DNA from: Xenophilus sp. E41
GTDB lineage: Bacteria > Pseudomonadota > Gammaproteobacteria > Burkholderiales > Burkholderiaceae_C
Assembly (NCBI RefSeq): GCF_003671765.1
Contig: NZ_QPIB01000034.1
Span: forward strand, 1-41,880
Length of the DNA: 41,880 nt
Direction: 5' to 3'
Below the pieces are notes generated by a model. That model was not told the origin of the DNA and made no database searches. It was given only the letters and a program-made list of their open reading frames with translations. Position numbers and translations under genes: made by a program. Shown in pieces: positions 19,942-41,880 of this stretch (position 1 is the first letter of the stretch; the number at the start of each line of letters is the position of its first letter).

Positions 19942-21265
19942 AGACACTCCTGAAATCGACGTCGCGCGCCACAAGGATCTGGATGCGCTCGCCCTGATTC
20001 TTGATCACGGTCGGCGGTATGGCGATCGTGTTGCGCAGCACCTCGGTCATGACCTCCCGGCTGCCTTGTGCGCCGAAGCTCACGCCTCCGCCACTGCCGA
20101 CGCTCGTGCCGCTCTTCTGGTTGGCGGCAATGGCCTGCATTGCCCCATCCACAACCGAGATGAGCAGCGCTGCTCCGAAGCGGTCCCAGAAGTGGTTGTC
20201 GACGTAGCCGGGCAGTCCATTGCGGCCGAGTTCGTCGGTGCCGGGAGAGGCGAGTTGCACGACCACGCCCGTAGGTGTTCGGGCCTCGCTCCACGCGACA
20301 AAGACCCGACCTTGGCCCTGGCGCGGCGAGCCCTTTTGCTCGCCGACGTACTTCGTGCCGCGTTCCAGGAGCACCACCTTGCCGTCCGCGCCGTAGATGT
20401 CGCTCGCACCGATGCAAGTGGTCATGCCCTCGTAGGTCGAGTCGATCGCGGTCTCCAGCGTGCAGTCGATGAAGGCGCCTTTGGGCAGGAGCATGCGACG
20501 CGTGGGCAGCTTCTGGGCCATCACGGCTGGTGTCGGCGTGGGCTTGAGGTTGGCGGCCAAGGAGCTGGCGCCCTGCGCGCCAGTGGGCGCCGTGCCCTGC
20601 ATGGCGCCGATCAGCTGAGCAACATTGGGAATACCGGGTTGGCCGGGCGCGCTGCCGCCGCCTGCCATGGCGTCCGGCGTGCCGTAGGGCACGCCCCCAC
20701 CGGTCAGTGACTGGCCCTTGCGAAGGACCGGGGTGCCAAGCTGCCGCTCCAGGGCGAGTTGCTCCGGCGTCTTTTGCGGTGGGGCACCGGGCGTCGCGGC
20801 TACTGGGGGCGGTGGAGGCGGCGTCGGCCCTGCGGCAGCAACGGGTGGCTCCGGGGGCTTGGGCGGATCAATCCGACCCAGGGGCGGGACCTTCATCTCG
20901 CCGCCAGCCCGTGCGGCAGCCGCCTTGCGTGCTGCTTCTTCGGCGTCCCGCGTCGTGCCGTACTGGGTGTTGTAGTACCAGAACAGGAAGCCGGCACCGA
21001 GGAGCACCATGGTCGCCAGCGCCAGCCCGCCGCTCACACGGGACTGAATGGACCGCTCGCGATTGACCGAGGGAATGGCGCGTTCGCCCTGTACGGTGGT
21101 CGCCGACGCAGCGCTTGCCTGGTCGCGGGCGCCGGGATCGGCACGCCGCTGTTGGCGGTCGGGGAGAATCTCGCCGGTGTCGAGGTCCACCCGGCCGTCA
21201 CTTTGGCTGTGGGGGCGGATGTCGTTGTCGTCGAACTCGGGCCGATCGCCGTTGAATCCGGTCAT
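19910..21265 (-). CDS. virB10: T4SS core-complex protein VirB10
   Basis: A 451-residue protein. An N-terminal cytoplasmic tail (1-75) is followed by one membrane segment (about 78-97, LALATMVLLGAGFLFWYY), a proline-rich periplasmic stretch (about 125-170) and the TrbI/VirB10 beta-barrel domain (about 255-440). That domain has the typical LPKGAFIDCTLETAIDST, LLERGTKYVGE and NHFWDRFGAALLIS blocks. It spans the inner and outer membranes and senses ATPase activity. Its ATG overlaps the virB9 stop by 4 nt. Confidence 0.94.
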   Translation of the reverse strand: MTGFNGDRPEFDDNDIRPHSQSDGRVDLDTGEILPDRQQRRADPGARDQASAASATTVQGERAIPSVNRERSIQSRVSGGLALATMVLLGAGFLFWYYNTQYGTTRDAEEAARKAAAARAGGEMKVPPLGRIDPPKPPEPPVAAAGPTPPPPPPVAATPGAPPQKTPEQLALERQLGTPVLRKGQSLTGGGVPYGTPDAMAGGGSAPGQPGIPNVAQLIGAMQGTAPTGAQGASSLAANLKPTPTPAVMAQKLPTRRMLLPKGAFIDCTLETAIDSTYEGMTTCIGASDIYGADGKVVLLERGTKYVGEQKGSPRQGQGRVFVAWSEARTPTGVVVQLASPGTDELGRNGLPGYVDNHFWDRFGAALLISVVDGAMQAIAANQKSGTSVGSGGGVSFGAQGSREVMTEVLRNTIAIPPTVIKNQGERIQILVARDVDFRSVYALRADPESP

Positions 21266-22101
21266 GGTGCTTCCCCTGTCGTCGTACGCTGCACGCCTGG
21301 CGCGCTCGTGTTGTTGGGCGTGCGCGCGCCACCGCCCGCGAAGGACTGATTGACGACACAGCCGACCAGCTGACCGCGGCGCAGAACGAAACGACGCGCG
21401 ACGCGGTGGATCACCACCTCATCGGATTCGACGTTGAAATTGAGCAGCGACTCCGTACCGTCGTCGTTCTGGACGAACATGGCCGGGAAATCGGAGCGCG
21501 CCTGGAAGCGCAGGCGCGTCTGCACCCCATCGTCGTAGGCGCTCATGGGCTTGAGCGAGGCGCTTCCGCAGAACCAGTAGTTCGAGTTCCGCGGTCGATC
21601 GGCGGCCTGGCTCATCCGCGCCTCGGCGCGGCGACGCTCTGCCTCTGCCGCCAGGGTGCGGGCTTCCTCGTCCGGGTAGGCGAATCGGATCGAATAGACC
21701 ATGCGCCTGGCCGCGGCGCCCTTGGGCGCCGTTGCGGAAACCGTGTAGTCGAAGTGGTAGGCCCGGCGGTTTGTGAGGACCGTGAGGTTGGTCGAGGCGC
21801 GGGCCTCTTTGGGCTTGATGAAGAAGTGGTTGCGCTCGGCGCCCACATCGAATGCGGCGTTGTCACCGGATCCGAGGTTGACGAACTCTTCGCCCTCCGC
21901 AAACTGGAGGTGGATCTGGTAGCCGACGTACCCGTGGAGGGTGACAACGTCCTCCGGGTTGTAGTTGACGACGCGCACGCGCGCATCCACTTTGCCCGTT
22001 GGCGGAACCGTCGCGGCCACCGCATGCGAGCCAACGGCAGCGAGGCATCCAGCCAAGGCAATCGCCTCGAGCCAGAGACGAGTGGGATCCGAGAAGGTCA
22101 T
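21262..22101 (-). CDS. virB9: T4SS core-complex protein VirB9
   Basis: A 279-residue protein from ATG 22101, overlapping the virB8 stop by 4 nt. The longer open frame to 22209 is a shadow of virB8. A signal peptide ends near AVAA at about residue 29. The mature part has the VirB9/CagX fold: VRVVNYNPEDVVTLHGYVGYQ, the RAYHFDY strand, and the C-terminal ARSDFPAMFVQNDDGTESLLNF and VIHRVARRFVLRRG blocks. It lines the outer-membrane pore with VirB7 and VirB10. Confidence 0.93.
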   Translation of the reverse strand: MTFSDPTRLWLEAIALAGCLAAVGSHAVAATVPPTGKVDARVRVVNYNPEDVVTLHGYVGYQIHLQFAEGEEFVNLGSGDNAAFDVGAERNHFFIKPKEARASTNLTVLTNRRAYHFDYTVSATAPKGAAARRMVYSIRFAYPDEEARTLAAEAERRRAEARMSQAADRPRNSNYWFCGSASLKPMSAYDDGVQTRLRFQARSDFPAMFVQNDDGTESLLNFNVESDEVVIHRVARRFVLRRGQLVGCVVNQSFAGGGARTPNNTSAPGVQRTTTGEAP

Positions 22102-22829
22102 CGACCGCCCTGCTTGGGACTCGGCGCGGGCGCCGTGCTGGTCGAAACGGTCTCCGGCTCGCGCCGGTACTCGATCACCCGAAACCCGAGCGGGTTGAGC
22201 GATCGCCACTTCTCGTCCTTGGACGGGGCGACATAGGCGAATTCGATGGTGGACACCCAGTGGGTAGCCTGCTCATCCCCGGTGCCGCCGGCGCGCGCAT
22301 ACCGAGTGAATCGCACCTGGGCCAGCTTGTCCCTGCCGCTGTCGAGCTTCAAGAACGTCACCGAACGCACCTGGGTCCGTATGGCCGTGCCGTCCTTGTA
22401 GAGGTTCAGGGGCGACTGTGGGTTGTTGGCTTCCCATAGGGCTGCCCAGTCCTGGTTGAGCTTCGGGGAGTTCTGCGAAGCCACGAGTTCGTAATCGGGC
22501 TCGGCGGTGCCGTAGAAATAGCGCTCTCGGGAGATGACGTAGTTCTGCAGCAGGTTGCGAGTGACGATCTGCTCCACGTCGGTCGTGCCTTCGTACCGCG
22601 GGACGACGTCCACGATGCCGCTGCCGCTATCCACGCGGATGACGACCGGGACCGGCTGCTTGAGCGGCGTGAGGCCGGCCACGGCACCGACCGACAGGAG
22701 CGCGATGAGGCCGGATGCGCTCGCGACGCCCCAGGCGACCTTCGCGGACCGCTCCGAGCGCCTCGCGCGATCGAGCTCCCAGCTCTGCGCTTCGGCCAAG
22801 TAGTTCTCAAGTGCCGGATCGCGCTTCAT
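22098..22829 (-). CDS. virB8: T4SS inner-membrane protein VirB8
   Basis: A 243-residue protein with a short cytoplasmic N-terminus (SWELDRARRSERSAKVAW), one membrane segment (about 32-54) and a periplasmic NTF2-like domain. Characteristic blocks are QNYVISRERYFYGTAEPDYELV and the later RYARAGGTGDEQATHWVSTIEF. VirB8 is an assembly factor that contacts VirB9, VirB10 and VirB5. The start overlaps the small virB7 gene by 23 nt. Confidence 0.92.
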   Translation of the reverse strand: MKRDPALENYLAEAQSWELDRARRSERSAKVAWGVASASGLIALLSVGAVAGLTPLKQPVPVVIRVDSGSGIVDVVPRYEGTTDVEQIVTRNLLQNYVISRERYFYGTAEPDYELVASQNSPKLNQDWAALWEANNPQSPLNLYKDGTAIRTQVRSVTFLKLDSGRDKLAQVRFTRYARAGGTGDEQATHWVSTIEFAYVAPSKDEKWRSLNPLGFRVIEYRREPETVSTSTAPAPSPKQGGR

Positions 22830-22959
22830 TGGACATTCCGGAAAGGGAGGTGGGGGCGTTGATGGGCTTGAGGTCGCCCTCGCATTCCGTCGGAAGGGGA
22901 GGACGGGTGCCGCAGGCGGCCAGCACCGCTAGAAACGAAAAGGCCAGGAGTAGCTTCAT
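22807..22959 (-). CDS. virB7: VirB7-like lipoprotein
   Basis: A 50-residue protein from ATG 22959. The signal peptide KLLLAFSFLAVLAAC ends in a lipobox (LAAC, cysteine 16), so it should be lipidated and outer-membrane attached. A second cysteine at about residue 26 could form a disulfide with VirB9, as in Agrobacterium. Position between virB6 and virB8, size and lipobox all fit VirB7. The 3' end overlaps virB8. Confidence 0.85.
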   Translation of the reverse strand: MKLLLAFSFLAVLAACGTRPPLPTECEGDLKPINAPTSLSGMSNEARSGT

Positions 22960-22972
22960 GTGTCTGTCTGCC

Positions 22973-24025
22973 TCACTGCCGGTGCGTGGGGTTCGGCATC
23001 ACCTGCTCGCGAGGGATGACGGTTCCTCCACGCCGGCTGGGCGTGACCGCCCGGGCGGCCGACGAGAGGCCGGTGCCGAGTCGATTGCCGGCCAAGCGGC
23101 GGAAGGAATCCCAGCGGCTGCCTGGTTCGCGACGAGCGCCGTCGATGACACCGCGGCTGAATTCGTAGGTCGACCGCTTTGCGCCGCCCAACGCCCACTG
23201 AGTCATGCCGCTTACCACACCAAATGAACTCAGAGCGATCCCACTGGCCAAGCCGGAGGCGATCGGCATGACTTGCCGCATGATGAGCAGCACCAGGGCG
23301 GCGCAAAGGATCATGTTCAGGGCATCCACGGTCACGATGGCTGCACCACGGGCCGCTGTCTGCGTGGCATACGAGGACACAACCTTGAGCATCAACGTGG
23401 CGACCAAAGTGCTCAGTACGGCAATGAGCGCGTAGTTGGCAAGCTGGGCAATCCAGGCTTCAAAGAATCGCCGGGTGGTCTCGAAAAGAAGGAGACAGAT
23501 GAAGACTGGTCCGATCGCCAGAATGAGAGCTAAGGCGAGCTTCGAGAGCGCCAGAAGAAACAGGGCGTACACGGAGACTCCGCCCATGATGAGGTACACG
23601 ATCGCTCCGGCCAGGTAGAAGCCGAAATCTCCGTTCAAGACGCCGCCTTTGTTCCAGAGATTGGAGGCGACACTGCCGCCCTTGTCCCAGATCGTGTCGA
23701 TCACTGTCACAGGATCGCGCGATCCAGTGATCACTGCTGCAAGTTGGCCTGGAGCCTTGAAGAAGGTGTCGACCAGGATCGCGTTGAACATCCAGAGCCG
23801 GATGCCGATCCCGAGGACGATGGCAATGAACAGGATGCGCTTCACGCCCTCCCAGATCGGCTCTTGAATCCGACCTGTCAGGCTCAGGTAGCCCCACATC
23901 ATCACGTAGATGGTGGCGAGCGTGACTGCGGCAGGCTCGATCGCGCCAGCCACCGCAGCGGACTTGGAGGCGATGTAGTCCGTGAGCTGGGACGTAAGCC
24001 AGGTCCAGAACTGTTGGAAGAACAT
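22973..24025 (-). CDS. virB6: T4SS polytopic membrane protein VirB6
   Basis: A 350-residue protein with an amphipathic N-terminus and about six or seven hydrophobic segments between residues 30 and 275, including AGAIVYLIMGGVSVYALFLLAL followed by the conserved GPVFICLLLFETTRRFFEAW (about 176-195). The C-terminal 80 residues are basic and soluble. This is the TrbL/VirB6 pattern of the inner-membrane channel. It lies 13 bp before virB7 on the same strand. Confidence 0.92.
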   Translation of the reverse strand: MFFQQFWTWLTSQLTDYIASKSAAVAGAIEPAAVTLATIYVMMWGYLSLTGRIQEPIWEGVKRILFIAIVLGIGIRLWMFNAILVDTFFKAPGQLAAVITGSRDPVTVIDTIWDKGGSVASNLWNKGGVLNGDFGFYLAGAIVYLIMGGVSVYALFLLALSKLALALILAIGPVFICLLLFETTRRFFEAWIAQLANYALIAVLSTLVATLMLKVVSSYATQTAARGAAIVTVDALNMILCAALVLLIMRQVMPIASGLASGIALSSFGVVSGMTQWALGGAKRSTYEFSRGVIDGARREPGSRWDSFRRLAGNRLGTGLSSAARAVTPSRRGGTVIPREQVMPNPTHRQ

Positions 24026-24045
24026 GTCGCGGATCCCGACTTGCG

Positions 24046-24267
24046 CTACTTGCCCTCAGCCGGTGGCATCGAGGGTTGAAAGCGATTTTGGAAGCTGCCA
24101 TGGTCCGGGGCCGGCTTCTGCGGTGACGCAGTGTTCGGCAGCTCGTGCGGTGGGGTGATCGGCGGTGCTACGGCGGCGGGCTGCTGCTGCGTCAGCACGT
24201 GGTAGGCACCTCCGCCCGCAGCAGCGGCGATCACGGCGATGACGATGATGAGAACGGACTTGGACAT
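24046..24267 (-). CDS. Small single-pass membrane protein between virB5 and virB6
   Basis: A 73-residue protein from ATG 24267, 4 nt after the virB5 stop. Residues 4-22 (SVLIIVIAVIAAAAGGGAYH) form one membrane segment. A proline- and glutamine-rich tail follows (PPITPPHELPNTASPQ). This slot often holds an entry-exclusion (EexN) lipoprotein in VirB clusters, but no lipobox is present here, so the function is open. Confidence 0.6.
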   Translation of the reverse strand: MSKSVLIIVIAVIAAAAGGGAYHVLTQQQPAAVAPPITPPHELPNTASPQKPAPDHGSFQNRFQPSMPPAEGK

Positions 24268-24271
24268 TGGG

Positions 24272-25006
24272 TCAGGGGCTCGGGACGAACCGGTCGGAGA
24301 AGCCGCCATGGCCTGAGATGACCTGCTCGCGAGCACGTTGCTGCTGGGCAGCGTCTTCTGCCTGTGCGATCTGATACAGGCTCTGCAGCTTGGTTTGCTC
24401 GTTCGTGAGCATGTTCTGCTCGGCCTGAATGCGCGCCTGCAGTTCCTGAATCGCCTTGGGGTCGTTGGTGCGGCCGATGGCGCCGATCAATTGCTGGAGG
24501 GCGGCGAAGCGGCTGCTGGTGTTCTGATATGCGTTGCGCGTCAGCCCGTTGAGCATTGCCGAGGCCTGCCTGCCCTTGTCGACCATCTGGCGCATGTCCG
24601 GGCTCAACGCATCCATCTGTGTGGTCGAGAGGATCTTGTTGGCATCCATGACCGACTGGACCTGACCGGACAGGCCCCCATAGCCCTGCGAAGAGCCGTT
24701 GGTGACGCGCATCAGGTCGTCGTAGCTCTGCGGCAGGTAGTTGCGGTCCATGTTGGACATCGGGAGCAACTGGTCCATTCCTCGTGTGCCCGTCATGGAG
24801 CTGTAGGTCTGCTGCAGCTGCTCTTTCGAGGCCTTGAGCTGGTCGAACTGCTTCTGCATTGCCGAGATCTGCTGCTGCCAGTACATGACCTGCTGGATCA
24901 GGTTGGCGACGGCCGTGACGTCGATCACCGGGATGCCTGCTCTGGCCTGCATTGGGGCGAGGAACGCAGATGCGGCCAGGAAGATGGCAAGAAGTTGCTT
25001 ACGCAT
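24272..25006 (-). CDS. virB5: T4SS minor pilin VirB5
   Basis: A 244-residue protein from ATG 25006, overlapping the virB4 end by 8 nt. The signal peptide KQLLAIFLAASAFLAPMQARA is followed by the VirB5/TrbJ pattern: GIPVIDVTAVANLIQQVMYW, long glutamine-rich helices (QQQISAMQKQFDQLKASKEQ), and a C-terminal coiled coil ending in GHGGFSDRF. VirB5 sits at the pilus tip. Confidence 0.9.
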   Translation of the reverse strand: MRKQLLAIFLAASAFLAPMQARAGIPVIDVTAVANLIQQVMYWQQQISAMQKQFDQLKASKEQLQQTYSSMTGTRGMDQLLPMSNMDRNYLPQSYDDLMRVTNGSSQGYGGLSGQVQSVMDANKILSTTQMDALSPDMRQMVDKGRQASAMLNGLTRNAYQNTSSRFAALQQLIGAIGRTNDPKAIQELQARIQAEQNMLTNEQTKLQSLYQIAQAEDAAQQQRAREQVISGHGGFSDRFVPSP

Positions 25007-27506
25007 GGATCGCCTCTTGGGTTGGTAGGGGACGAAGGGCTCGCCCGGAAAGTGCATGCCGGAACGGCTCGAGCCATTGGTCAGGGTCCGGGCCGTGCTC
25101 AGCCATCAAGTCGCGCATGAGCCGCACGTTGCTGGTGCGGCCAGAGATCACGTGCAGGGCGTCCTCGAAACCCTTGAGATCGAGCTTCGCCACCACGCTC
25201 ACGTGGTTCTGCTTGATCAGGCACTGGCGGGAGCCGGGCTCGAGCTCCTGCTTGATGAGGGCGAACTCGCGGTCCGTGAGGTTGAACCCCTCTGTGTACT
25301 CGCGATAGTCAGCATCCGGGTTGGGGAACAAGATCTTGGTCGGGGTCTGCTCGATGATGGCGCGGGCAATCGACGAATCCAGGACGTGGCTCGTGCTCTG
25401 GGTGAAGGTCGCGAGGTTGGCGTTCTTCTTGCGCCAGGTCTCCAGCCCGTTCTTGGCGAATCGTGCGAAGGCCGGGTCGCTCAGCAGCTTGGCGAATTCG
25501 TCCATCCAGCACACCAGAGGACGGCCATCCACCATCCGGTTCACGAGGTGGAAGAGGTACATGGTCAGCGGCGCCCGCACGACGTCGTTGTCCAGGAAGT
25601 CCGTCACGTCGAAGCCGACGAGGCTGTGACGAGCCAGCAGCGGCGCGATCTCGTCCTGGTCGTTGTCGAACACCCAGGCGTAGTCGCCGCCCTCGCACGC
25701 GCACCACTTGCGCAACCGGGCATACATGCCTTCTGGATCGGTGATGTCCAGGAAGGAAATGAGTCGCGACAGGCGACGGAAGGGCGGATCGAGCTTGAGC
25801 GTGCCGCGCAGCGCCTGGTCGAGGTCTTCCTCCTGCCGCACCGACAGGGTCTCATCGGCAGAGCGCAGAACGAGACGCCGGAGCCAGTGCCGCATGAACT
25901 CGACGTTGTCTGGAACGCCGGCATCGAGTTGGAGCGGGTTGCAGCGAGTCGGCGCGCCGTTCTTCAGCGGCAGATATTGGCCGCCCAGCGCGCGAACGAG
26001 GATGTGCAGGCCCTCGTCCTTGTCGAAGATCACCTGGGTGGCGTCCAGCCGGTTGCAGATCGCGATCAGACAGAAGCCGAGGAAGGTCGTCTTGCCGGTG
26101 CCGACTGGTCCAACCCCTGTGACATGGCCGACGTCCCGCCGGCTGCCGCCGTCGGCGCTGCGCGGATCGCTGGCATGGAGAGAGAAGTAGTAGGGCGAGC
26201 CGGCGCGCGTCATGAACATCGCCAGGGCGTCGCCCCAGTAATTGCCGGTCGCGCGGCCGGTCGGGAAGTTGTGGAACGGGGACATCGCCGCGAAGTTCCG
26301 GCTGGTGATCGGCGATTTGCGCGTGCGGTAGCCAAAGTTGCCGGGCAGCTGGGCCCAGAAGGCTGCCTCCATGGCCAAGTCCTCCCGGGCGACGACCATG
26401 CCGGTGTCGCCGAGGAGGTAGCGCGCCCGCGCCACGTTGTCGTTGAGTTGCTTGAGACGGGGACGGCCTTCGGCCTCACTCACGCCGTCGAAGGTGTCCG
26501 CCAGGACGTGGAGGGTGAAGTGGTGGTCGCCGACGACGAACCGGTTGCTCATGAGGTCGTCCAGGGCGTCCCGAAGCTCTTCGGCCTGGGAGACGGCGAG
26601 GTCGCCAGACGAGGCCATCCGGTTGTGCTGGCGGCTCATCATGTCGGTGGCCGTGCCTTTGGCCAGAAAGGTGAAGCTCTGCGTCAGCACAAAAGGGAAG
26701 GGGGCTGTCAGGAGGGCGCCGAACATGCCCGGCGCCGTCGGCGTCGGGTACTCCTTGATCCCTAGGAAGGCGCCGATCCGGGTCTGCGTGCCCGTGCGGT
26801 ACTCCATGGCCTCGTTGCCGAAGAATGGGCGGCTCGTGGCCAGGACCTCATTGAGCGGCGAGCGCGGCATGGGCATACGCTGCCATTCGCCGTTGATCAG
26901 CAAGCCATGGAACTCGGCCAGCGACGAGAACAGCACATCGACGCCGTCGATTCGGTAGACACCCAGCGGTTCGGGGTCATACCGCTCCAGGGATGCCATC
27001 AGTTCCTGACGCAGCTTGGTGCAGGCGTCGAGGGAGTCGCGTAGCTCCGTTCTGGCACCCTCGGCGTCCGTCCGTTTGAGGATCCGCAGCGCGGCGTTGC
27101 CCAGCTTGGTCGGTTGCGGGCGGTAGACGACCGACAGGTAGAGCTCGTTGACCATCAGCCGCTCGCCGGCCATCTTCTGGCGGTAGCGGCGCTCGACCTC
27201 GTCGGCGAAGCCCGGCACCGTGCGCCCGGCCGGATAGCCCGTCTCCCGGCGCCGCACGATGTGAGTCCAGATCGCGATGTTGGGCGAGCTGATGTTCCGG
27301 TAGGAGACGTTGAGGCGCTCGTGCCAGCTGTTGATGTCGTCGTCATCCGCGCTCTCGAAGCTGGCGCCTGACAGACGCAGCGTCTGGACGTAGTCGCCAG
27401 CCCGGGTGCGCGCCACGTGTTCGTCGACATGCGCGACCAAGGGGATCATGGCGGCCGCGCTCACCTCGCGGCGCAGCGTGGCATCGGAGCGGGACAGGAA
27501 CTGCAT
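24999..27506 (-). CDS. virB4: T4SS ATPase VirB4
   Basis: An 835-residue protein, full length for VirB4/TrbE. Walker A GVGPVGTGKTT lies at about residues 464-474 and Walker B LVCWMDEFAKLL at about 664-675. The N-terminal CagE/TrbE/VirB domain (180-400) includes FLTQSF-like and QHNRMASSGDLAVSQAEEL blocks. It powers pilus biogenesis and DNA transfer at the cytoplasmic face of the inner membrane. VirB3 is not fused to it but encoded 7 bp upstream. Confidence 0.95.
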   Translation of the reverse strand: MQFLSRSDATLRREVSAAAMIPLVAHVDEHVARTRAGDYVQTLRLSGASFESADDDDINSWHERLNVSYRNISSPNIAIWTHIVRRRETGYPAGRTVPGFADEVERRYRQKMAGERLMVNELYLSVVYRPQPTKLGNAALRILKRTDAEGARTELRDSLDACTKLRQELMASLERYDPEPLGVYRIDGVDVLFSSLAEFHGLLINGEWQRMPMPRSPLNEVLATSRPFFGNEAMEYRTGTQTRIGAFLGIKEYPTPTAPGMFGALLTAPFPFVLTQSFTFLAKGTATDMMSRQHNRMASSGDLAVSQAEELRDALDDLMSNRFVVGDHHFTLHVLADTFDGVSEAEGRPRLKQLNDNVARARYLLGDTGMVVAREDLAMEAAFWAQLPGNFGYRTRKSPITSRNFAAMSPFHNFPTGRATGNYWGDALAMFMTRAGSPYYFSLHASDPRSADGGSRRDVGHVTGVGPVGTGKTTFLGFCLIAICNRLDATQVIFDKDEGLHILVRALGGQYLPLKNGAPTRCNPLQLDAGVPDNVEFMRHWLRRLVLRSADETLSVRQEEDLDQALRGTLKLDPPFRRLSRLISFLDITDPEGMYARLRKWCACEGGDYAWVFDNDQDEIAPLLARHSLVGFDVTDFLDNDVVRAPLTMYLFHLVNRMVDGRPLVCWMDEFAKLLSDPAFARFAKNGLETWRKKNANLATFTQSTSHVLDSSIARAIIEQTPTKILFPNPDADYREYTEGFNLTDREFALIKQELEPGSRQCLIKQNHVSVVAKLDLKGFEDALHVISGRTSNVRLMRDLMAEHGPDPDQWLEPFRHALSGRALRPLPTQEAIHA

Positions 27507-29492: not shown

Positions 29493-30293
29493 ATGAGCAA
29501 CGTCGTTGTCTTTGGCAACCAGAAAGGCGGTGTCGGCAAGTCGACGCTGTCGCTCCTCTATGCCATGTGGCTTGCCGATGTGCATCGGCAGTCCGTGTGA
29601 TTCATCGATCTCGACACCCAAGGCAACGCATCAAAGACGTTGCGCGCCTCTGATGTCAGCGTGCAGGCAGCGAGTCTCTTTGCCCCAGGGACCGATGCGA
29701 GCAAGATCGGGCCCGGCGACCACCGCGTGCGGCAGATCGCTCTGATCACTGCGTCCAAGCAGCTGGCGGACGTCGAACTGGCCAGGCCGGACGTGGTGAT
29801 TCCTACGTTTCGGAGCGCGGTGCGCGCACTCGAGGCGCGGTTCGACACGGTCGTCATCGATACGCCCCCAGCGCTGGGCCTTCGCATGAGTGCCGCCCTG
29901 ATTGCTGCGACCCGCGTGGTGTGCCCGATCGAGCTGGAGGAGTACAGCATCGACGGCGTGACCGACATGCTCAAGACGGTCTTTGGGGTCCGTCAACGCT
30001 ACAACCCGCGGCTGGAGCTAGCAGGGATCGTCCTGAACCGTTTCAACGCGCACTCGGCGCGCCAGAAATCCGCCGTGCAGCAGTTGGCGGCCAGCTACCG
30101 TGATTTCGTGATTCCCGCGCGCATCTCAACGCGCTCGGCGATCCCGGAAGCGTTGGCGGAGGGGAAGGCCGTGTGGGAGTTGAGCAAGAGCTCCGCGCGT
30201 AAAGCCAGTCTAGAGGTCAAGGAGGCATTTGCGGCGCTTCAGCAACGCATCCAGCTGCAGCCGGTCGCGATTGCGGAAGGAGTTTCCGTATGA
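29493..30293 (+). pseudogene. parA: ParA partition ATPase interrupted by an in-frame TGA
   Basis: From ATG 29493 (GGAGGTCTCGT upstream) the frame encodes the deviant Walker A FGNQKGGVGKSTLS. A TGA at 29598-29600 then interrupts it directly before FIDLDTQGNASKTL, the ParA Walker A' region. Everything after the stop is in the same frame and intact to 30293, including VVIDTPPALG, so only one codon separates this from a normal 266-residue ParA. Cysteine or tryptophan codons (TGC, TGG) differ from TGA by one base. It may be a real nonsense mutation, a sequencing error or a readthrough site. parB follows with a 4-nt overlap. Confidence 0.85.
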
Positions 30294-31195
30294 ACGATCT
30301 GGACGCACTCGACCTCAGCGGCCTGGCGCAGTTCAGGCCATCAGACTTCCTGGCAGCCGGAGCGGGCGTCTCGGATCCGTCCGCCGCCGTGCATGTCGAC
30401 CTCTCCGTGATCGACTTCGACCCGGCGCAGCCGCGCCGCAGCTTCAAGCGTGAGTCGTTGGACGAGCTGAGCGAGTCGATCCGGCAGCATGGCGTGCTGG
30501 AACCTGTCTCGTTGAGACGCCATCCTGAGCGCGGAGAGCGCTACATCGTGAATCGTGGCGAACGGCGCGTTCGAGCTGCGCGGCAGGCCGCTTTGACCAC
30601 GGTGCCCGCGTTTCTCGACGACCGAATGGATCCATTCGCGCAGGCGGCGGAAAACCTCCACCGCGAGGACATGTCCGCGCTGGACCTTGCGCTGTTCATT
30701 GCTGAGCGCGAGCGTGAGGGCATCAGTCGTTCCGAGATTGCGCGACGCCTTGCTAAGCCGCGGTCGTTCATCACCGAGGCTGCGGCGCTCAACGAGGCTT
30801 CGTCCGAACTTCTCGAAGCGGTCAGGGATGGGCGGGTCAGCGAGGATGTGCGGACGCTCTATCGACTCGTATCCGTGGGCCGCCAGGAGCCGGCTGTTGT
30901 GCGCGAATTGCTGGGACGCGGCGATCCGATCTATCGCGCGAATGTGGAGGCCCTGATCTCGCAAGCAAGAGGTAGGGCCCCTGTGGCGCCCACTGACGCT
31001 GGCGCTACCTCAGTGCCCGTTCGCAGTGGCGGTCGGACGGTTCTCGTAGTCGAGCATGAGGGCAAGCGCGGCTCGCTGCGCATGAAAGCGCAGGACAGCG
31101 ACCTTGCCGAAGTGCGTTTTGGCGACGGCACGCGCAGCGCGGTCCCGCTCGCGGCCCTGAGATTGGTGTGTTGGGCAACGGAGGAAGCGAAATGA
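30290..31195 (+). CDS. parB: ParB/KorB-like partition and DNA-binding protein
   Basis: A 301-residue protein. The ParB/RepB/Spo0J N-terminal domain (about 35-125) has IDFDPAQPRRSF, YIVNRGERRVRAARQA and the arginine-rich AAENLHREDMSALDLALFI (box II). A helix-turn-helix follows (SRSEIARRLAKPRSFITEAAAL, about 143-165). The C-terminal part after a linker (VLVVEHEGKRGSLRMK...) resembles the KorB SH3-like dimerization domain. It binds parS-like sites and may also repress operons, as KorB does. Its start overlaps the parA stop by 4 nt. Confidence 0.9.
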   Translation: MNDLDALDLSGLAQFRPSDFLAAGAGVSDPSAAVHVDLSVIDFDPAQPRRSFKRESLDELSESIRQHGVLEPVSLRRHPERGERYIVNRGERRVRAARQAALTTVPAFLDDRMDPFAQAAENLHREDMSALDLALFIAEREREGISRSEIARRLAKPRSFITEAAALNEASSELLEAVRDGRVSEDVRTLYRLVSVGRQEPAVVRELLGRGDPIYRANVEALISQARGRAPVAPTDAGATSVPVRSGGRTVLVVEHEGKRGSLRMKAQDSDLAEVRFGDGTRSAVPLAALRLVCWATEEAK

Positions 31196-31832: not shown

Positions 31833-32885
31833 CTACACCACGTCGACGGCGGCCGGCAGCACGCGGTCATAGCGCCTCATCTCCGCCGGGTCGACGCCCA
31901 TCCACGCGGCCACCTGGTCGGGCGGTGTGCCTCTTCGGAGCTGGCGCATGGCAAAGGTATGCCGCAGCCGGAAAGATCCGCCTTCGCGGGAATCCATACC
32001 GGCGTCTTCGAGGACCTGACGCGCATTCTTGTACTGGGAGTTGGCAAGCCATGGTTTGCCGGTACGCGTCGACGGGAAGAGGTGTTCGCCAACGACCCCC
32101 GCATCGGCCCGCACCTGGAGCCAGTAGTGGAGCAGCTCTGCAGCCCAAGGTGCGACCGGTGTCTCCCTCGGCTTGGATGTGCCGTTGCCCGGTACCTGGA
32201 GCTTCCAGATCTGGTCTCGGGTGCGACCACCGTGCGCAATGGGGGAGTGGAGGGTCAGCGCGCGCACATCCCCGGGTGTCAGGCCGGCCCCTAGTTGCAA
32301 GGCCACGGAAGCGCGATTGCGCACCTCTTGCCAGGTCATGGCAGCCAAGGCATCGCGGTTGCGGCCAGGCCGAGGCCGGGCGGCCGACAGATGCGTCATG
32401 AGCTGTCGCGCCTCAGGAGCCGACAGGTACTCGGGCAGTGGGTCTTTGGTCTCGACCTCCGAATAGCGGACCTCGGGGTTGGCCAGGACCCAGTCCGAGG
32501 CGGAGGTATTGGGGAAGGTGTCGGTCCGCGCGGCATAGTGGCGCAGCACCCGGTCGATGAGGCGCATGAGGCGCAGCACATAGCGTGGCGACAGGGACCG
32601 GTCGGCGGCTTTCTGACCGAAGCGGGCCGCCTGGTAGGCCTGCAGATCCTCAATCGCCAGCGATTCGAGTGTGACCCGAGGCGACTGGCCCAGGCACCAG
32701 CCTGAGAAGCTGTCCCACATCGCTTGATAGACCTCGGTCACGCCCGGCTGTCGAAGCGAGCCACTGGCGCGCTGGCCGGCCAGCCAAGTCGCGAACGCCT
32801 CCTGCCAAGCCACAGCGGGGCTGAGGGCGGCAGGCTCAACATCGAACAGGGAGGCGGTCAAACCGCGGGGAAGGGGAGAGGGCAT
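31833..32885 (-). CDS. Divergent tyrosine recombinase
   Basis: A 350-residue protein. Residues 25-145 form a core-binding helical domain and residues 150-345 the catalytic domain. Recognisable elements are ALQLGAGLTPGDVRALTL (box I), a lysine strand (GNGTSKPRETPV, K238 candidate), FRLRHTFAMRQL (box II, R308) and RRYDRVL with the likely nucleophile Y339. The usual Arg I position is threonine (T202, though R208 is close) and the first histidine of HxLRH is phenylalanine (F305), so the active site is unusual. The start codon abuts a 16-bp inverted repeat that may be its binding or recombination site. Convergent with the KorA-like gene. Confidence 0.8.
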   Translation of the reverse strand: MPSPLPRGLTASLFDVEPAALSPAVAWQEAFATWLAGQRASGSLRQPGVTEVYQAMWDSFSGWCLGQSPRVTLESLAIEDLQAYQAARFGQKAADRSLSPRYVLRLMRLIDRVLRHYAARTDTFPNTSASDWVLANPEVRYSEVETKDPLPEYLSAPEARQLMTHLSAARPRPGRNRDALAAMTWQEVRNRASVALQLGAGLTPGDVRALTLHSPIAHGGRTRDQIWKLQVPGNGTSKPRETPVAPWAAELLHYWLQVRADAGVVGEHLFPSTRTGKPWLANSQYKNARQVLEDAGMDSREGGSFRLRHTFAMRQLRRGTPPDQVAAWMGVDPAEMRRYDRVLPAAVDVV

Positions 32886-32967
32886 AAATCAACTAACGGA
32901 CTGCGCTCGTATTCTGGTCGACGGGGTGTGTTTTTGGAAGTCTGTTCGCCTTCCGTTAGTTGATTTA
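32885..32967. repeat. 16-bp perfect inverted repeat beside the recombinase gene
   Basis: TAAATCAACTAACGGA (32885-32900) and its exact reverse complement (32952-32967) flank a 51-bp spacer. The left copy begins at the recombinase start codon and the right copy lies about 67 bp upstream of it. Perfect 16-bp arms in AT-rich sequence within a GC-rich region suggest a paired recombinase-binding site: an attachment site, an invertible segment or an autoregulatory operator. No third copy was seen in the window. Confidence 0.75.
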
Positions 32968-33205
32968 AGAAGTAGTGCCCGGATGGGGGCCGCCAGGTGG
33001 AGCCAACTGAGTCGACCGAGTGACCGCGCCAACTCCCAACTTAGGTCGTGGCGCAGTGCGGGATCACATGGCCCACTGGACAGGATTGGCAATGAAGATC
33101 ACCGACTCAGCTCAGGCTCGCCGCGTGCTTAGCGCCAATTGCGTAGCATCGGATCGCCCGCTACGAACGCCAATCGTCTTTAGATTGGCCGTACCATTGA
33201 TCGTG

Positions 33206-34921
33206 CTAGGCTGGTGCCGCTGTGGTTGCGAATTGAGCGCCCATCGCTGGCTTGTCAAGCTCTAGGACCACTTTTCTCGCTTCGCGACGAAGGTTCTCGA
33301 CAGGATAAGTTCTGACCAGCCGAGGACCTTCGATTTCAAAAGAGAAACGTTCAACAAGGCACTCCGCAGCGACCAACGGGTTCGACTCGTAGATCAACAT
33401 ATAGTTGCGCCTAGTCCAAGCCAGCACGGCTGTTTGAAGCGCCCGATCATGACGGTCCGAACCCATTGCGCCGGGCTGAAGACCTAACACATTCAAGCAG
33501 AAGCCGAGGATCTTGGCTCCTTTGAAGTTCGGAAACTTCTCCAACTTGACGATCTCGTCATAGAGCAAACGTCGAACCTTCGTCTTGATTAGGCGTCCTG
33601 CTGGTCCGTCCAGGTTGTTCAGGTGGAACAACGCCGACCACACCGCGTTGTGCTGCACATCCCAACACAGCGTCCATGGCGCTCTGACGCACGAAGCATA
33701 GAAGATCAGCTCGAAGATGAGCCTTGCGAGGTCGTCATAGATGGTCTTGCCTACCTCCATGCGCCGCAGACGATATTTGGCATTCTCAGGGACGGGGAGG
33801 CCCTCGAGCTTCGTCACAGCGTCCTCAACGAACTTCACCACCACATAACACCGCTGAATCGAATCCGAGTTCCAGCGTTCTTCTTGCCCATTAACTCTCG
33901 CAAGATCCATGCATGCACGCTGTATGCGATCGAAAGCTCGGTACAGCGCTGTGGATCGGCGATGAAGTTGATTCTTCGCCACGTAGCTACCAAGTGTGAT
34001 CAGAACGGCTCGACAGTAGGCTTGAAGTTGTTCGGCGTCCCACTCACCGGTTCCAACGGAACCCGGATCCAAAAGCGTGCCAACGCTTTCAACCAGCGAA
34101 TAGTTGGAAAACAGGGCCTGACTGAGGGGCTTGTGGTAGCCGATCAGGCCCGACCGATAGCCGTCCGCTTCGTGGAATAGGAAGGAATCCCGATTGTGAA
34201 GTGCCTCACGGACGATGTTGGCGCCAAAGGTCTCGATCTGCACGCCAAACTTCTTTGTGGCGTCGATCTCCGAGAACAACGCCCATGCTGTGCCAGGCGA
34301 AGACTTAACAATCGCTCGACAGAATCTCTGGTCGGCAATCAACAGAAGAAGATCATTCGCATAGCCGACCGCTCGCTCTTTCTTCGTCTTGAGCTCCAGA
34401 TTAGTCCGTGATCCATGCAGGTTTCGGTCTGTTGCGAACGAGATGAGAGAGCGCGCTGAATCTGCGAGTTCGTCGGCGACGATCCCCAACTCCTCGGGCG
34501 CACCTCTGACGATTGAGGAGTACAGCGCGCCGGCGAACCGCTCAGCATTGCGCTGACCAAATCGCGGAGGCCGGATAAAAGCGAACCATGCCCACGCCAA
34601 AAACGTCAGAAAGAAGATGCCGCCCAAAAGTCCTTGCCATAAGGCCGGTGTTATGAAGTGCCCCTTCGGCACATACCACTGCTCAGCGCGCCAAAGATCG
34701 GTAAGCAGCGTGAGTGCGCCGATGATCGCCACCATCCAGAACGTCGTCGCTCGAAGCGGAAGCGGCGCGACCCTGATCCTGAACTTGTAGCGAACGTCGG
34801 CGAGCGTCCAAGCCAAGACCATCAGTGCCAAACCAGCCAAGAATTCCGAGAATCCGAAGAACTTGGGTGCGCTTGCTTCGAGTTGGATGAAACACAATAT
34901 CCACTGGCAACGTTCGTTCAA
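33206..34921 (-). CDS. Unrecognised membrane protein with large soluble domain
   Basis: A 571-residue protein; ATG 34921 follows CAGGAGATCG at good spacing. Three hydrophobic segments lie in the first 130 residues (FLAGLALMVLAWTLADV, ATTFWMVAIIGALTLLTDLW, LLGGIFFLTFLAWAWFAFI). A mostly helical cytoplasmic region of about 440 residues follows, with no motif I recognise. GC content and codon use are visibly lower than in the T4SS genes, suggesting separate acquisition. It stands alone between the recombinase and the dnaE2 operon. Position in cargo next to a recombinase makes an accessory, perhaps defence-related, role possible but unproven. Confidence 0.7.
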   Translation of the reverse strand: MNERCQWILCFIQLEASAPKFFGFSEFLAGLALMVLAWTLADVRYKFRIRVAPLPLRATTFWMVAIIGALTLLTDLWRAEQWYVPKGHFITPALWQGLLGGIFFLTFLAWAWFAFIRPPRFGQRNAERFAGALYSSIVRGAPEELGIVADELADSARSLISFATDRNLHGSRTNLELKTKKERAVGYANDLLLLIADQRFCRAIVKSSPGTAWALFSEIDATKKFGVQIETFGANIVREALHNRDSFLFHEADGYRSGLIGYHKPLSQALFSNYSLVESVGTLLDPGSVGTGEWDAEQLQAYCRAVLITLGSYVAKNQLHRRSTALYRAFDRIQRACMDLARVNGQEERWNSDSIQRCYVVVKFVEDAVTKLEGLPVPENAKYRLRRMEVGKTIYDDLARLIFELIFYASCVRAPWTLCWDVQHNAVWSALFHLNNLDGPAGRLIKTKVRRLLYDEIVKLEKFPNFKGAKILGFCLNVLGLQPGAMGSDRHDRALQTAVLAWTRRNYMLIYESNPLVAAECLVERFSFEIEGPRLVRTYPVENLRREARKVVLELDKPAMGAQFATTAAPA

Positions 34922-35043
34922 TTCCGATCTCCTGATTAGATGGGACCTCCGGCTGACGCACTGTAGATGACCGGCAGGAAATTGCGTTTCCTGTCTGCAT
35001 TGCGATGCTTGCTATTCGAAGTGCAGGGTGTCCGCCGTTCGGA

Positions 35044-35373
35044 TCAGGGCGTTAGCTTGCGGCCGAATCGACTGGAGACGATCGCGCGCATGCTCGCGAC
35101 AAGCCGTGTAGGCCCCTCCATCCAGACACCTCGTGACGGTCCGGGTCGGTCGTCGCTGGGAACCACGACGGCACACCAGACCCAGTTGCGCGCGGGCATC
35201 GGGGCGCTGTGGACCTTGAACCGATACATGATGGGGCCGCCAGCCTCGTAGCTTGTCGAATAGCTTCCAACTTGCGCGAGCCAGCTTTTAATCGGCTCGG
35301 TTTCTGGTCGCCATCCGTCGCACCGAGCCACCCATCGATCGAGCTCGACGCCCGAGAGTTCGGAGATCAGCAT
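35044..35373 (-). CDS. NinX-like DUF2591 family protein
   Basis: A 109-residue protein from ATG 35373, two bases after the dnaE2 stop. Its opening, ISELSGVELDRWVARCDGW, matches the start of the phage NinX/DUF2591 family (EL-G-x-LD-x-WVA). Later regions (PIMYRFKVHSAPMP, WVWCAVVV) are beta-rich. The function of the family is unknown. Tight coupling to dnaE2 implies co-expression under SOS control. The longer frame upstream is a shadow of dnaE2. Confidence 0.65.
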   Translation of the reverse strand: MLISELSGVELDRWVARCDGWRPETEPIKSWLAQVGSYSTSYEAGGPIMYRFKVHSAPMPARNWVWCAVVVPSDDRPGPSRGVWMEGPTRLVASMRAIVSSRFGRKLTP

Positions 35374-35375
35374 GG

Positions 35376-38582
<3,207 letters not shown>

Positions 38583-39277: not shown

Positions 39278-39423
39278 AAGGCAGACCGAGGAGGAGGGTT
39301 CACGTTCTCTCGTGAGCCGATCTGCAGCTTCAATCTAAGGTGACATCGTCCGCCGGCGGGTAGGATGAAGGCGCACATGCCCCTGTGCCGGGCGTGTTGC
39401 CTCTACCTCGATCGCTGCCGCCC

Positions 39424-40404
39424 ATGTGCTATTCCGCCCAGGTCCGTGCCGAGTACGCTGCTTTCCAGCGCATGTTCCCGAGCTCGAAGCTTTCGCTGAA
39501 AGGCTTCTGGGAGATCTACTGGCGCCGACGCGAGCAGCCCAAGCCGGTGATGCGCTTCTCCAAGGCGATGGATGCGATGTTTGCCAGGCCGCAGACGGAC
39601 GAAGAGCAGAAGATCCACGCGCTCATCCAGGAGTACGACGCCGAGCTCACGACGGCGACGGAGCAGGGGCTCTTCAAGCAGCGCAAGCGCCTGGCGGATG
39701 CGGAGCGCACGCTGACCACCAAGGTGACGAAGAAGGCCCAGGACGACCAGCGCATCGCCACCAACAAGATCAAGGACGCGCTGCGCAAGCTCGAGGACCT
39801 GCGGCGCACGGAGCTTGTGGAGCAGGACTATCGGATTTTTCCGGGGTGGTGGGCACCGGTGTTGATCGTGGAGGAGGGCGAACTCGTGGTGCGGCCGATG
39901 CGCTACCTGTGCAGGCCGCCGGGCAAGCCGGCCGACTACGACGTCAAGTTCTCAGGGGCGTACAACGCGCGGCGGGACAACCTCAAGAGCAGTTTCTGGA
40001 AGGGCGAGTTCGGGCAAACGCACGCGATCGCTCTGATCCCGGTGTTCTACGAGAACGTTGTGCGGCACCTCGCGGAGCACCGCGAACTCGGCCCGGGCGA
40101 GACGCCCGAGAACATCGTGCTGGAGTTCAGGCCGCAGCCGCAGCGGACGATGACCGTGGCGTGCATCTACTCCCACTGGACGCCGCCGGCAGGGTCGGAT
40201 GAGACTGAGCTTTGGTCGTTCGCGGCGATCACGGATGAGCCGTTGCCGGAGGTCGCGGCGGCGGGGCATGACCGAACGATCGTGGCGCTCAAGCCCAAGA
40301 GCATCATGCCCTGGCTGACGCCGCAGGGGCGATCTCACACAGAGCTAGACACGATGCTCGAGGACAAGGAGCGGCCGTACTACGAACACCGGATGGCAGC
40401 CTGA
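39424..40404 (+). CDS. SRAP-domain protein (YedK/HMCES family) with coiled-coil insert
   Basis: A 326-residue protein from ATG 39424, so that Cys2 follows the initiator as the family requires (MCYSAQ). Expected catalytic residues are visible: C2, N181 in NARRD, E210 in PVFYENV and H282 in GHDR. SRAP proteins crosslink through Cys2 to abasic sites in single-stranded DNA and protect them. Unlike the usual roughly 220-residue enzymes, residues about 45-130 form a long charged coiled coil (EQKIHALIQEYDAEL, then KIKDALRKLEDLRRTEL) inserted after the N-terminal segment. It lies near SOS-controlled dnaE2, suggesting a DNA-damage module. Confidence 0.85.
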   Translation: MCYSAQVRAEYAAFQRMFPSSKLSLKGFWEIYWRRREQPKPVMRFSKAMDAMFARPQTDEEQKIHALIQEYDAELTTATEQGLFKQRKRLADAERTLTTKVTKKAQDDQRIATNKIKDALRKLEDLRRTELVEQDYRIFPGWWAPVLIVEEGELVVRPMRYLCRPPGKPADYDVKFSGAYNARRDNLKSSFWKGEFGQTHAIALIPVFYENVVRHLAEHRELGPGETPENIVLEFRPQPQRTMTVACIYSHWTPPAGSDETELWSFAAITDEPLPEVAAAGHDRTIVALKPKSIMPWLTPQGRSHTELDTMLEDKERPYYEHRMAA

Positions 40405-40638: not shown

Positions 40639-41127
40639 CTACGATCGAATCTTGCGCCAGAGTCGTTTGCACAGCTCTCTCAATCCCTCCCCTCGCCGAG
40701 CGGGATGCGATTGCGTTTCAATCGACGCCTCGACTTGGAGGTTGCTGCCGGCGTTCGTTTTCTGGCGATGTTGCTGTGGACTATCCGAGCCGTAAAAGTG
40801 GCGCTTTCTTGCCGCGCTCATCTGACGCACGGCCGCCACCTCGGCGTTGCTCATCGACTCGGTCCATTCGACCTTCCCGCCAGAAATCCAGTAGTGCGAT
40901 CTGCACTTGAAGGCATGATTTCCGATCGATGGCTCCAAAGACACTGAGCGGCCATCAAAGAAAAGATGCCAATCTTCAGGTGCGAGAGGCGTAATCGTCT
41001 CCATCCCGCATCCGCAGGCACATCGGTGCCCAGCGACAGCATGCTCCATCGAAACATACAGCACGCCTTCTTCCAATGAATCTGGAAGGAGCTCGACAAA
41101 TTTCGATTCCAGTCTCGTTTGCCTCAC
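40639..41127 (-). CDS. DUF6527 family protein
   Basis: A 162-residue protein. The blocks VELLPDSLEEGVLYVSMEHA, then CACGCGMETITPLAPEDWHL, and CRSHYWISGGKVEW are the DUF6527 pattern. Cysteines at about residues 36, 38, 40 and 75 could bind zinc. DUF6527 genes commonly accompany ThiF/E1-like and ubiquitin-like genes in bacterial conjugation-type systems, and here the upstream gene is ThiF-like with a 4-nt overlap. GC content is lower than in the backbone. The family's biochemical role is not established. Confidence 0.75.
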   Translation of the reverse strand: MRQTRLESKFVELLPDSLEEGVLYVSMEHAVAGHRCACGCGMETITPLAPEDWHLFFDGRSVSLEPSIGNHAFKCRSHYWISGGKVEWTESMSNAEVAAVRQMSAARKRHFYGSDSPQQHRQKTNAGSNLQVEASIETQSHPARRGEGLRELCKRLWRKIRS

Positions 41128-41732
41128 TGATCTTTCTCCTCGTTGGAGATCTGATTCAGACTCAGCGAAAACGTGGTGTTGAAGTCGTTTCGATCACTCA
41201 GGTAGATGCCACTCAACCGCTTCCACTTGAAGATAGCCATCAACGCGTTCATGCAATTCAGCTCAGCAATCTGGATGTTCGAGCGATAGAGATCATCCTC
41301 GCGATCAACGACTGGTAGCCGGGCGCGCGCCTCTGGGCGACTCTCGGGTGAGCTCGTAGTCAGGCGGCAACTCCCCCAGAGGTTTTGATGATCATCGGTG
41401 AGGTTCACGCCCATCCCAGCGTCCAGAAATATCGTGGACGTGCTCTCAAGCGCGTCCGCGATAAGTTGCCGAACGGATCCTTTGTCCACGCAAACGAACA
41501 CAAAGTCATAGCCCATTAGGGCCGCAACGTTGACTTCCGTGATCATCTCAGCGTGAGCGACGATTCCTCGGTGCATTGCCGAATAGATCTCGTGGAAGTA
41601 CGCCACCTTGTACAGTTGCCGATCGAGCGTCTCGCGAGAAGAAGCGCCAGGGGCTCGGAACGCGTTGTGCTGAAAGTAGCGATCGCCATCGAAAAGATGA
41701 ATCTCCCTCACGTGCGTCTTAGCCAGAAAATC
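41124..41732 (-). pseudogene. ThiF/E1-like adenylyltransferase, truncated by an IS66-type element
   Basis: The remaining roughly 202 residues begin at DFLAKTHVREIHLFDGD, equivalent to the segment just after the GxGGTGS nucleotide-binding loop in ThiF proteins that carry an N-terminal DUF6791 (E2-like) domain. QHNAFRAPGA, FVFVCVDKGSVRQLI and an LDAGMG strand follow. The loop itself and everything upstream are gone. An in-frame ATG at 41753 lies inside the insertion-sequence end, so a short product (209 residues) could be made but would lack the ATP-binding loop. It overlaps DUF6527 by 4 nt. Confidence 0.75.
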
Positions 41733-41880
41733 GTGAGCGTCTGGCCGTCCCATCTTGACGGCGATCAGCGTTCAGGCCTGCACTGATGTCCAGCGATGCG
41801 GCAGCAGCTCGGCGAGTCGGGAGTTGGGCAGTGCCGGCAGACGCTGCAGCACATCACGCAGGTAGGCCCACGGGTCGTGC
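41733..41880 (-). mobile_element. End of an IS66-family insertion sequence (partial)
   Basis: From about 41733 the sequence GTGAGCGTCTGGCCG resembles an IS66-type terminal inverted repeat, and ThiF homology stops at exactly this point. The transposase gene ends 39 bp inside the element. The rest lies beyond the window, so the terminus is inferred from the homology breakpoint and the repeat-like sequence. Confidence 0.65.
41772..41880 (-). CDS. IS66-family transposase TnpC, C-terminal fragment
   Basis: The last 35 residues are present: DPWAYLRDVLQRLPAL, then SRLAELLPHRW and a short tail to TGA at 41774-41772. This is the typical IS66 TnpC C-terminal pattern. The catalytic part is to the right of the window. 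Confidence 0.75.
   Translation of the reverse strand, partial: HDPWAYLRDVLQRLPALPNSRLAELLPHRWTSVQA

Follow-up and report, generated by a model that had tools for sequence, protein, structure and literature searches.

Can a tyrosine recombinase that has lost most of its canonical catalytic residues still own a DNA site, and if so, what do protein and site do together? The question is raised by a gene in a 41,880-nt stretch of DNA (the window; positions 1 to 41,880 of contig NZ_QPIB01000034.1 from Xenophilus sp. E41), which encodes a protein of the tyrosine recombinase fold and is preceded by a perfect inverted repeat, TAAATCAACTAACGGA. An original prediction, made from the letters alone, proposed that the repeat is the recombinase's own site and that its absence near homologous recombinases would speak against this. 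Of 133 related loci (duplicates included), 116 have a like pair of inverted arms scoring above threshold in front of the recombinase, which makes 93 distinct pairs once identical copies are removed; none of 635 same-size control windows elsewhere in the loci has one, which favours the claim. Such a pair recurs at these loci, with arms that vary in step with the recombinase, and we therefore assign the repeat to the recombinase, the most probable reading being that it serves this protein as its cis site. The function that we tentatively favour is maintenance of the replicon.

Inverted arms beside the recombinase gene

The repeat is exact, as originally described: its two 16-bp arms face each other across a 51-bp spacer with 0 mismatches (Table 1), the AAC-to-GTT distance is 57 bp, and the gene-proximal arm starts on the A of the recombinase ATG (32885, minus strand). 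At up to 3 mismatches, TAAATCAACTAACGGA matches the window only at these two arms, where 0.01 matches are expected by chance. The far end of the supposed cargo genes had been named as a place to look for a further copy; none was found beyond the two arms in the Xenophilus genome (5.92 Mb, 43 contigs; up to 2 mismatches). Around the recombinase start, no sigma-70-like promoter was found, and that the proximal arm supplies a -10 element is an idea from inspection only.

The related loci were collected from two sources. A tblastn search of 72,556 plasmid records gave matches in 84, and among the best 40 listed, 16 (H1–H16) share ~35–68% identity and come mostly from Variovorax, while 24 share ~25–30%. 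A profile scan of a genome collection gave 135 pattern hits and 109 relatives, of which the best 80 of 109 loci were kept; the genome search added further loci, many of them from genomes already included. The 133 loci thus contain duplicates of the same genomes (23 identical pairs), and they exclude L015 and L041 (copies of the window and of L007), L098 (the Xenophilus genome itself) and the fragments L138–L140.

The arm motif derived from the loci reads, from the outside inward, AAATNNNCTAAC|GGCA. In the 93 distinct pairs, the AAC-to-GTT distance ranges from 51 to 151 bp (median 79), and helical phasing of the two arms is absent (Rayleigh R 0.14 at 10.5 bp; n = 93). Within a locus, the two arms differ on average by 1.00 mismatches per 12 nt, compared to 3.29 between loci, and arm differences are correlated with the distance between the proteins (Mantel r 0.52 and 0.59; n = 89). 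Inward of about +7, the agreement between arms is at background level (83 loci), so no second paired (L-type) box exists. Two recognisable halves of an arm occur in single loci, such as L012, L025 and L042. The relation between arm and gene can also vary: compared to L084, an insert of ~1.4 kb lies between the arms of L086, whose displaced 5' arm can still be recognised, and L104 and L046 carry one arm only, directly before the start codon.

Arms that are complementary and change together could also pair with each other. Recombinases act on a folded strand at integron attC and at the CTX phage attP, and here the arms would form a hairpin with the spacer as its loop, on which the recombinase acts during conjugation or replication. 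The free and unphased loop length and the mostly unconstrained loop sequence agree with such a site, as do the folding of the single window strand (z = -3.9) and the conjugation genes of the host element. However, at least one mismatch separates the 12-nt arms in 58 of the 93 loci (19 loci share an A/G difference at the same position), the second paired box is missing, and complementarity is expected anyway if one protein reads two inverted sites. We regard a folded single-stranded site as improbable. As for structure within the spacer itself, the spacers folded (60 of 83) behave on average like shuffles. Even less probable than the folded site, if only slightly, is its fuller version, in which a recombinase with one canonical Arg and the Tyr would recombine folded plasmid DNA at a site that is live only when single-stranded, for example upon conjugative arrival.

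Copy number and sequence change around the arms

The arm pair is a single-copy feature of most replicons examined. When 10 plasmid records (0.2–2.5 Mb) were searched for the exact pattern CTAACGG-N62..92-CCGTTAG, 8 gave a single match, located at the recombinase, and the two other records have variant arms at that place (CCAAC arms in L014; one variant arm and a shorter spacing in L128). Within up to 6 kb of the 93 loci, 10 extra arm-like matches scored 13.2–17.3 bits, one of them being the displaced arm of L086, while true arms have a median of 23.8 and a minimum of 8.5 bits; divergent extra sites could escape both the exact-pattern and the arm-like search. Different plasmids of one strain carry module copies of their own. 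Together with the single pair in 8 of 10 records, this is better matched by a maintenance site than by the end of a cassette or transposon.

The original prediction had instead raised an integron-like or transposon-like insertion system, with cargo genes of different base composition starting just beyond the repeat. Composition does change outside the arm, where the GC content is 0.55–0.56 in 1-kb bins from 33.0 to 35.0 kb and a low-GC gene lies on the arm's far side, but "just beyond" is only approximately right, as similarity between the window and its 95% relative L016 continues to 33169, ~200 bp past the arm (350 columns, 81% identity overall; by inspection, the ~60 bp adjoining the arm match poorly). 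The extra stretch of the window spans about 33169–35060, its place being taken by ~0.5 kb in L016, and insertion of cargo at the 5' arm itself was rejected for this locus. Inside the stretch lies a low-GC open reading frame (ORF) of 571 aa without a Pfam match (33206–34921).

A second case looks more favourable to insertion: in L008, ~1.1 kb with zeta-toxin and antitoxin genes (-1175 to -72 from the match start) abuts the outer edge of the 5' arm and is absent from the 98% relative L009. Nevertheless, the far end of this insert has no arm-like match scoring above 13. No arm pair was seen downstream of the recombinase gene, nor, on inspection, a common motif past its stop codon, so that, with the far-end 16-mer missing from the Xenophilus genome, recombination ends at both borders of a transposon are lacking. 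The locus likewise differs from integron integrase and attC in having no array of sites and no second paired box, and the recombinase reaches 16.6 bits against a cutoff of 220 in the NCBIfam XerA/integron-integrase model. With the pair single in most records and the extra matches weak, the insertion system did not hold up, and we consider it very unlikely.

Sequence change near the arms is patchy. Among 35 locus pairs compared, similarity ends at an arm in four close ones, two of them (L008/L009 and L083/L087) at the outer edge of the 5' arm and two (L044/L048 and L060/L062) on the inner side of the 3' arm; alignments run through the arms in others, such as L045/L047, L014/L091 and L072/L078, and that of L036/L037 ends in mid-spacer. 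The spacers of L056, L058, L059, L125 and L126 compare at near-random level (z -0.3 to 2.5; pS 0.09–0.16), while the 80 bp outside the arm align; in L056, L058 and L059 the spacer has turned over between flanks that are alignable on both sides, and L125 and L126 remain alignable with each other (distance 0.12, pS 0.077). In L008/L009, the spacers differ by 0.26 plus gaps, compared to 0.038 at synonymous sites. In contrast, spacers are slow in the window and L016 (distance 0.10, pS 0.22), L014/L091 (0.16, 0.22) and L083/L087 (0.20, 0.27). Spacer turnover is thus uneven, and the idea of a hypermutable spacer was toned down for this reason. Exchange at the arms is a possible explanation for the four close pairs that lose similarity there; no donor spacer was recognised among 83 loci.

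Since inverted sites flank the region before the gene, a switch in which the recombinase flips the spacer and changes expression also had to be weighed. Among the close pairs compared, no reverse-complement spacer match rose above the shuffled level and no case of both orientations was found, so that an Rci/Fim-like invertase was rejected. The central sequences of the two arms also agree only to about +7. We hold an invertible switch to be the least credible of the roles considered. One reverse-orientation match (score 15) was seen between the spacers of L056 and L082.

Active site and a possible role in replicon maintenance

The recombinase has a strongly degenerate active site. Profile alignment to XerD places Thr at Arg I (T203), Asn at the Lys of the GKG motif (N234), Phe at the first His (F305) and Val at the His of the LGH motif (V331). 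The unusual site proposed originally, with Arg I replaced by Thr, F305, R308 and Y339, was correct except for the numbering of the first residue (position 202 is Leu), and the deviation goes further than proposed, as the Lys and the last His are replaced too. The protein has the core-binding and catalytic domains of the tyrosine recombinase superfamily without its full RKHRH and Tyr set. Its predicted structure (mean pLDDT 84, pTM 0.58) is nearest to XerA and XerH, and with a first helix at residue 23 and residues 1–17 mostly below pLDDT 50, there is no space in the model for a folded arm-binding domain at the N-terminus.

The same changes are common to the relatives. Over 120 loci, the box I residue is T in 83, A in 25, G in 4 and S in 2 (6 unscored), never R in the 114 scored, and position 305 is F in 98, Y in 15, R in 1 and Q in 1 (5 unscored). 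In the best 120 of 578 close homologues, Tyr339, R308, H309 and R208 are each present in 120 of 120, K228 in 119 and R240 in 117, while residue 331 is V in 74, I in 45 and L in 1; for the Lys position in relatives, alignments are the only basis. Close pairs show purifying selection on the gene. Missing Arg I has precedents: it is described as lost in IntCTnDOT and as shifted in IntDes, whose first His is likewise aromatic (Tyr) (PMC8138268). The same source presents these as arm-binding-domain enzymes of other bacteria, whereas here the Lys and last-His positions are changed as well.

A sister clade in Cupriavidus and Burkholderia, retained on Cupriavidus plasmids, has lost the tyrosine. In the best 120 of 152 homologues of the Cupriavidus necator pHG1 protein, the aligned place holds I (88), L (20), M (5), V (3) or a gap (4), and R208 (118), R240 (118) and R308 (116, 4 gaps) are kept. 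None of 8 Tyr-less loci (L129–L131 and L232–L236; Tyr absence judged by eye in L130, L131 and L235) has an arm pair of this motif, and only short unrelated inverted repeats were found. An HU gene adjoins the Tyr-less relative in 5 of 6 annotated or partly annotated cases (downstream in L129, L233, L234 and L236, divergent upstream in L235; L130 lists none, and L131 and L232 are unannotated). A short palindrome precedes some Tyr-less starts on Cupriavidus plasmids, such as CCGCCTCGTACGAGGCGG in L233.

These data allow a protein that no longer recombines: a DNA-binding protein of recombinase fold that would bind the arms, repress its own gene and build a cis complex of the partition, silencing or copy-control kind. 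It would accord with the loss of all canonical residues but R308 and Y339, with the box I and first-His changes in all relatives scored, with the retention of Tyr-less relatives beside HU genes, and with the operator-like single arms of L104 and L046. MrpR, described as a former recombinase that lost this function and binds a 15-bp motif (PMC10516654), offers a precedent; MrpR/YopR (SPbeta) and SroF (phi3T), recombinase-fold repressors, are among the fold matches of our protein. MrpR is reported there to bind repeated elements across its own prophage, whereas the inverted pair found here, one per replicon, adjoins the protein's own gene. Against a non-catalytic protein, Tyr339 is invariant in the best 120 homologues listed, the sister clade could lose its Tyr and yet keep the family fold signature, and the arm pair goes with the Tyr-bearing clade. 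For a pure autorepressor, no other target is known and no second exact-pattern pair lies in the replicon, where divergent single sites were not sought. We judge a non-catalytic role, the foremost competitor of the reading that we prefer, to be possible but rather unlikely.

The reading we prefer, with a confidence just short of even, is a replicon-maintenance recombinase that acts on its own identical sites in dimers and represses itself through the proximal arm. The gene and its two inverted arms would form one maintenance module of Burkholderiales plasmids and megaplasmids. Each arm would be a putative binding site with a strong outer 12-bp half-site (AAATNNNCTAAC), a centre beginning at GGCA, ~7–8 bp long going by the few sites that look complete, and an inner half-site that is weak and for the most part degenerate. 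Two such sites would face each other 51–151 bp apart before the gene. As the proximal arm lies at the start codon, we propose that bound protein represses its own gene. In a plasmid dimer or cointegrate, strand exchange between the identical arms of both copies would restore monomers. The observed basis is the association of arms with the recombinase, the outer half-site, the single pair in most records, purifying selection, an Xer-like fold and the invariant Tyr; DNA binding, the inner half-sites, autorepression, catalysis and dimer resolution are what we infer from it.

Several observations weigh against replicon maintenance. Four of six canonical catalytic residues (Arg-Lys-His-Arg-His-Tyr) are missing. 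The Tyr-less sister clade, too, retains the conserved R208, R240 and R308, which may thus serve DNA binding only, and MrpR is described as keeping the catalytic Lys and Tyr and being nevertheless a repressor (PMC10516654). Inner half-sites show a mean excess of only z ~2 at an 8-bp centre on both sides, with larger values at 0–1 bp; at least 8 of 12 inner positions match at 8 bp in 2 of 93 loci on each side, and some other spacings do equally well. The arm pair is absent in 17 of 133 loci, 14 of them outside the inspected Tyr-less ones (L011, L039, L046, L057, L071, L073, L079, L086, L102–L104, L107, L108 and L122, besides the distant Tyr-less L129–L131). The top extra arm-like scores all belong to pair-less loci (L011, 17.0 at -3050; L057, 17.3 at -622; L079, 16.7 at +6008; positions relative to the match start). 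No consistent terminus position emerged, the site being loosely near a GC-skew switch in at best 2 of 4 large replicons and at the local GC-skew maximum in 1 of 3 stretches of 50 kb. Finally, recombination products were not observed, breakpoints at arms may mark places where similarity fades in unconstrained flanks, and the alignments of many pairs run on through the arms. As a separate observation, in 51 of 66 loci with 5-kb flanks the GC skew before the module exceeds that behind it, with gene orientation uncontrolled.

Xer/dif is the closest known system. XerA, XerH and XerCD supply the nearest fold and the best profile matches, and shared features are the short N-terminus of the model and, in 8 of 10 records, the presence of one site only. 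The NCBIfam scores lie far below equivalog cutoffs (XerC 29.2 bits against 335.15; XerD 17.9 against 329.6), placing the protein outside both families. Unlike in Xer/dif, the recombinase gene is plasmid-borne and adjoins its own site, the catalytic residues are changed at four of six positions, no consistent terminus location was seen, and two inverted sites 51–151 bp apart replace one short site. A dif site has inverted arms around a 6–8 bp centre; each arm here is possibly such a core, with inner halves recognisable only in single loci. TnpI-IRS, TnpS-rst, ResD-rfsF and Cre-lox are tyrosine recombinase systems of plasmid or transposon resolution, from which our locus differs in its large and variable arm spacing.

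If the recombinase is active, it would show that very little of the textbook active site can suffice for a tyrosine recombinase, and large Burkholderiales plasmids would have an upkeep system dedicated to them. If it is inactive, the family would be a natural example, of some size, of recombinases that became DNA-binding proteins, with Tyr-bearing and Tyr-less branches side by side. No prior description of the family was found in the open-access full-text literature, judged by titles and the starts of abstracts.

The host element and its other genes

The window seems to comprise a complete contig, and an identical recombinase is encoded on contig QAIB01000020.1 of Xenophilus aerolatus E41. The window contig carries type IV secretion and ParA/ParB genes (Table 1) as well as relaxase genes and is therefore probably a conjugative plasmid or similar element. 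The order recombinase-ParB-ParA-VirB is found in L006 too. As the AAA_31 match of the ParA-like protein starts within the profile, its N-terminal part is missing from the ORF.

Table 1. Coordinates of the recombinase module and of neighbouring genes in the window
Feature	Position	Strand	Remarks
Tyrosine-recombinase-fold protein, 350 aa	31833-32885	-	Pfam Phage_integrase E = 4.9e-9; degenerate active site T203/N234/F305/R308/V331/Y339
3' (gene-proximal) arm, TAAATCAACTAACGGA	32885-32900	+	12-nt half-site 32886-32897; shares A of start codon
Spacer, 51 bp	32901-32951	.	length and sequence mostly poorly conserved among relatives
5' (gene-distal) arm, TAAATCAACTAACGGA on minus strand	32952-32967	-	half-site 32955-32966
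ParA-like gene	29640-30293	+	AAA_31 match from profile position 78 on; other side of recombinase
ParB-like gene	30290-31195	+	other side of recombinase
VirD4/TraG-type, T2SSE/VirB11-type, TrbL/VirB6 and VirB4-type genes (type IV secretion)	16851-27506	-	indicate conjugative element

Further genes of the element include one for a DNA polymerase III alpha-type protein, possibly DnaE2-like (35376–38582), and one for an SRAP (SOS-associated peptidase) protein (39385–40404). At the low-GC contig end, an ORF at 41124–41753 has a weak ThiF match under the curated cutoff. Near the other end, the ORF at 186–1067 combines arm-binding and SAM-like integrase domains with a following C-terminal DUF3363 piece, which suggests that an integrase was either fused to another gene or broken into it. 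Besides the recombinase, the Xenophilus genome has 14 further Phage_integrase matches, 13 of which exceed the cutoff.
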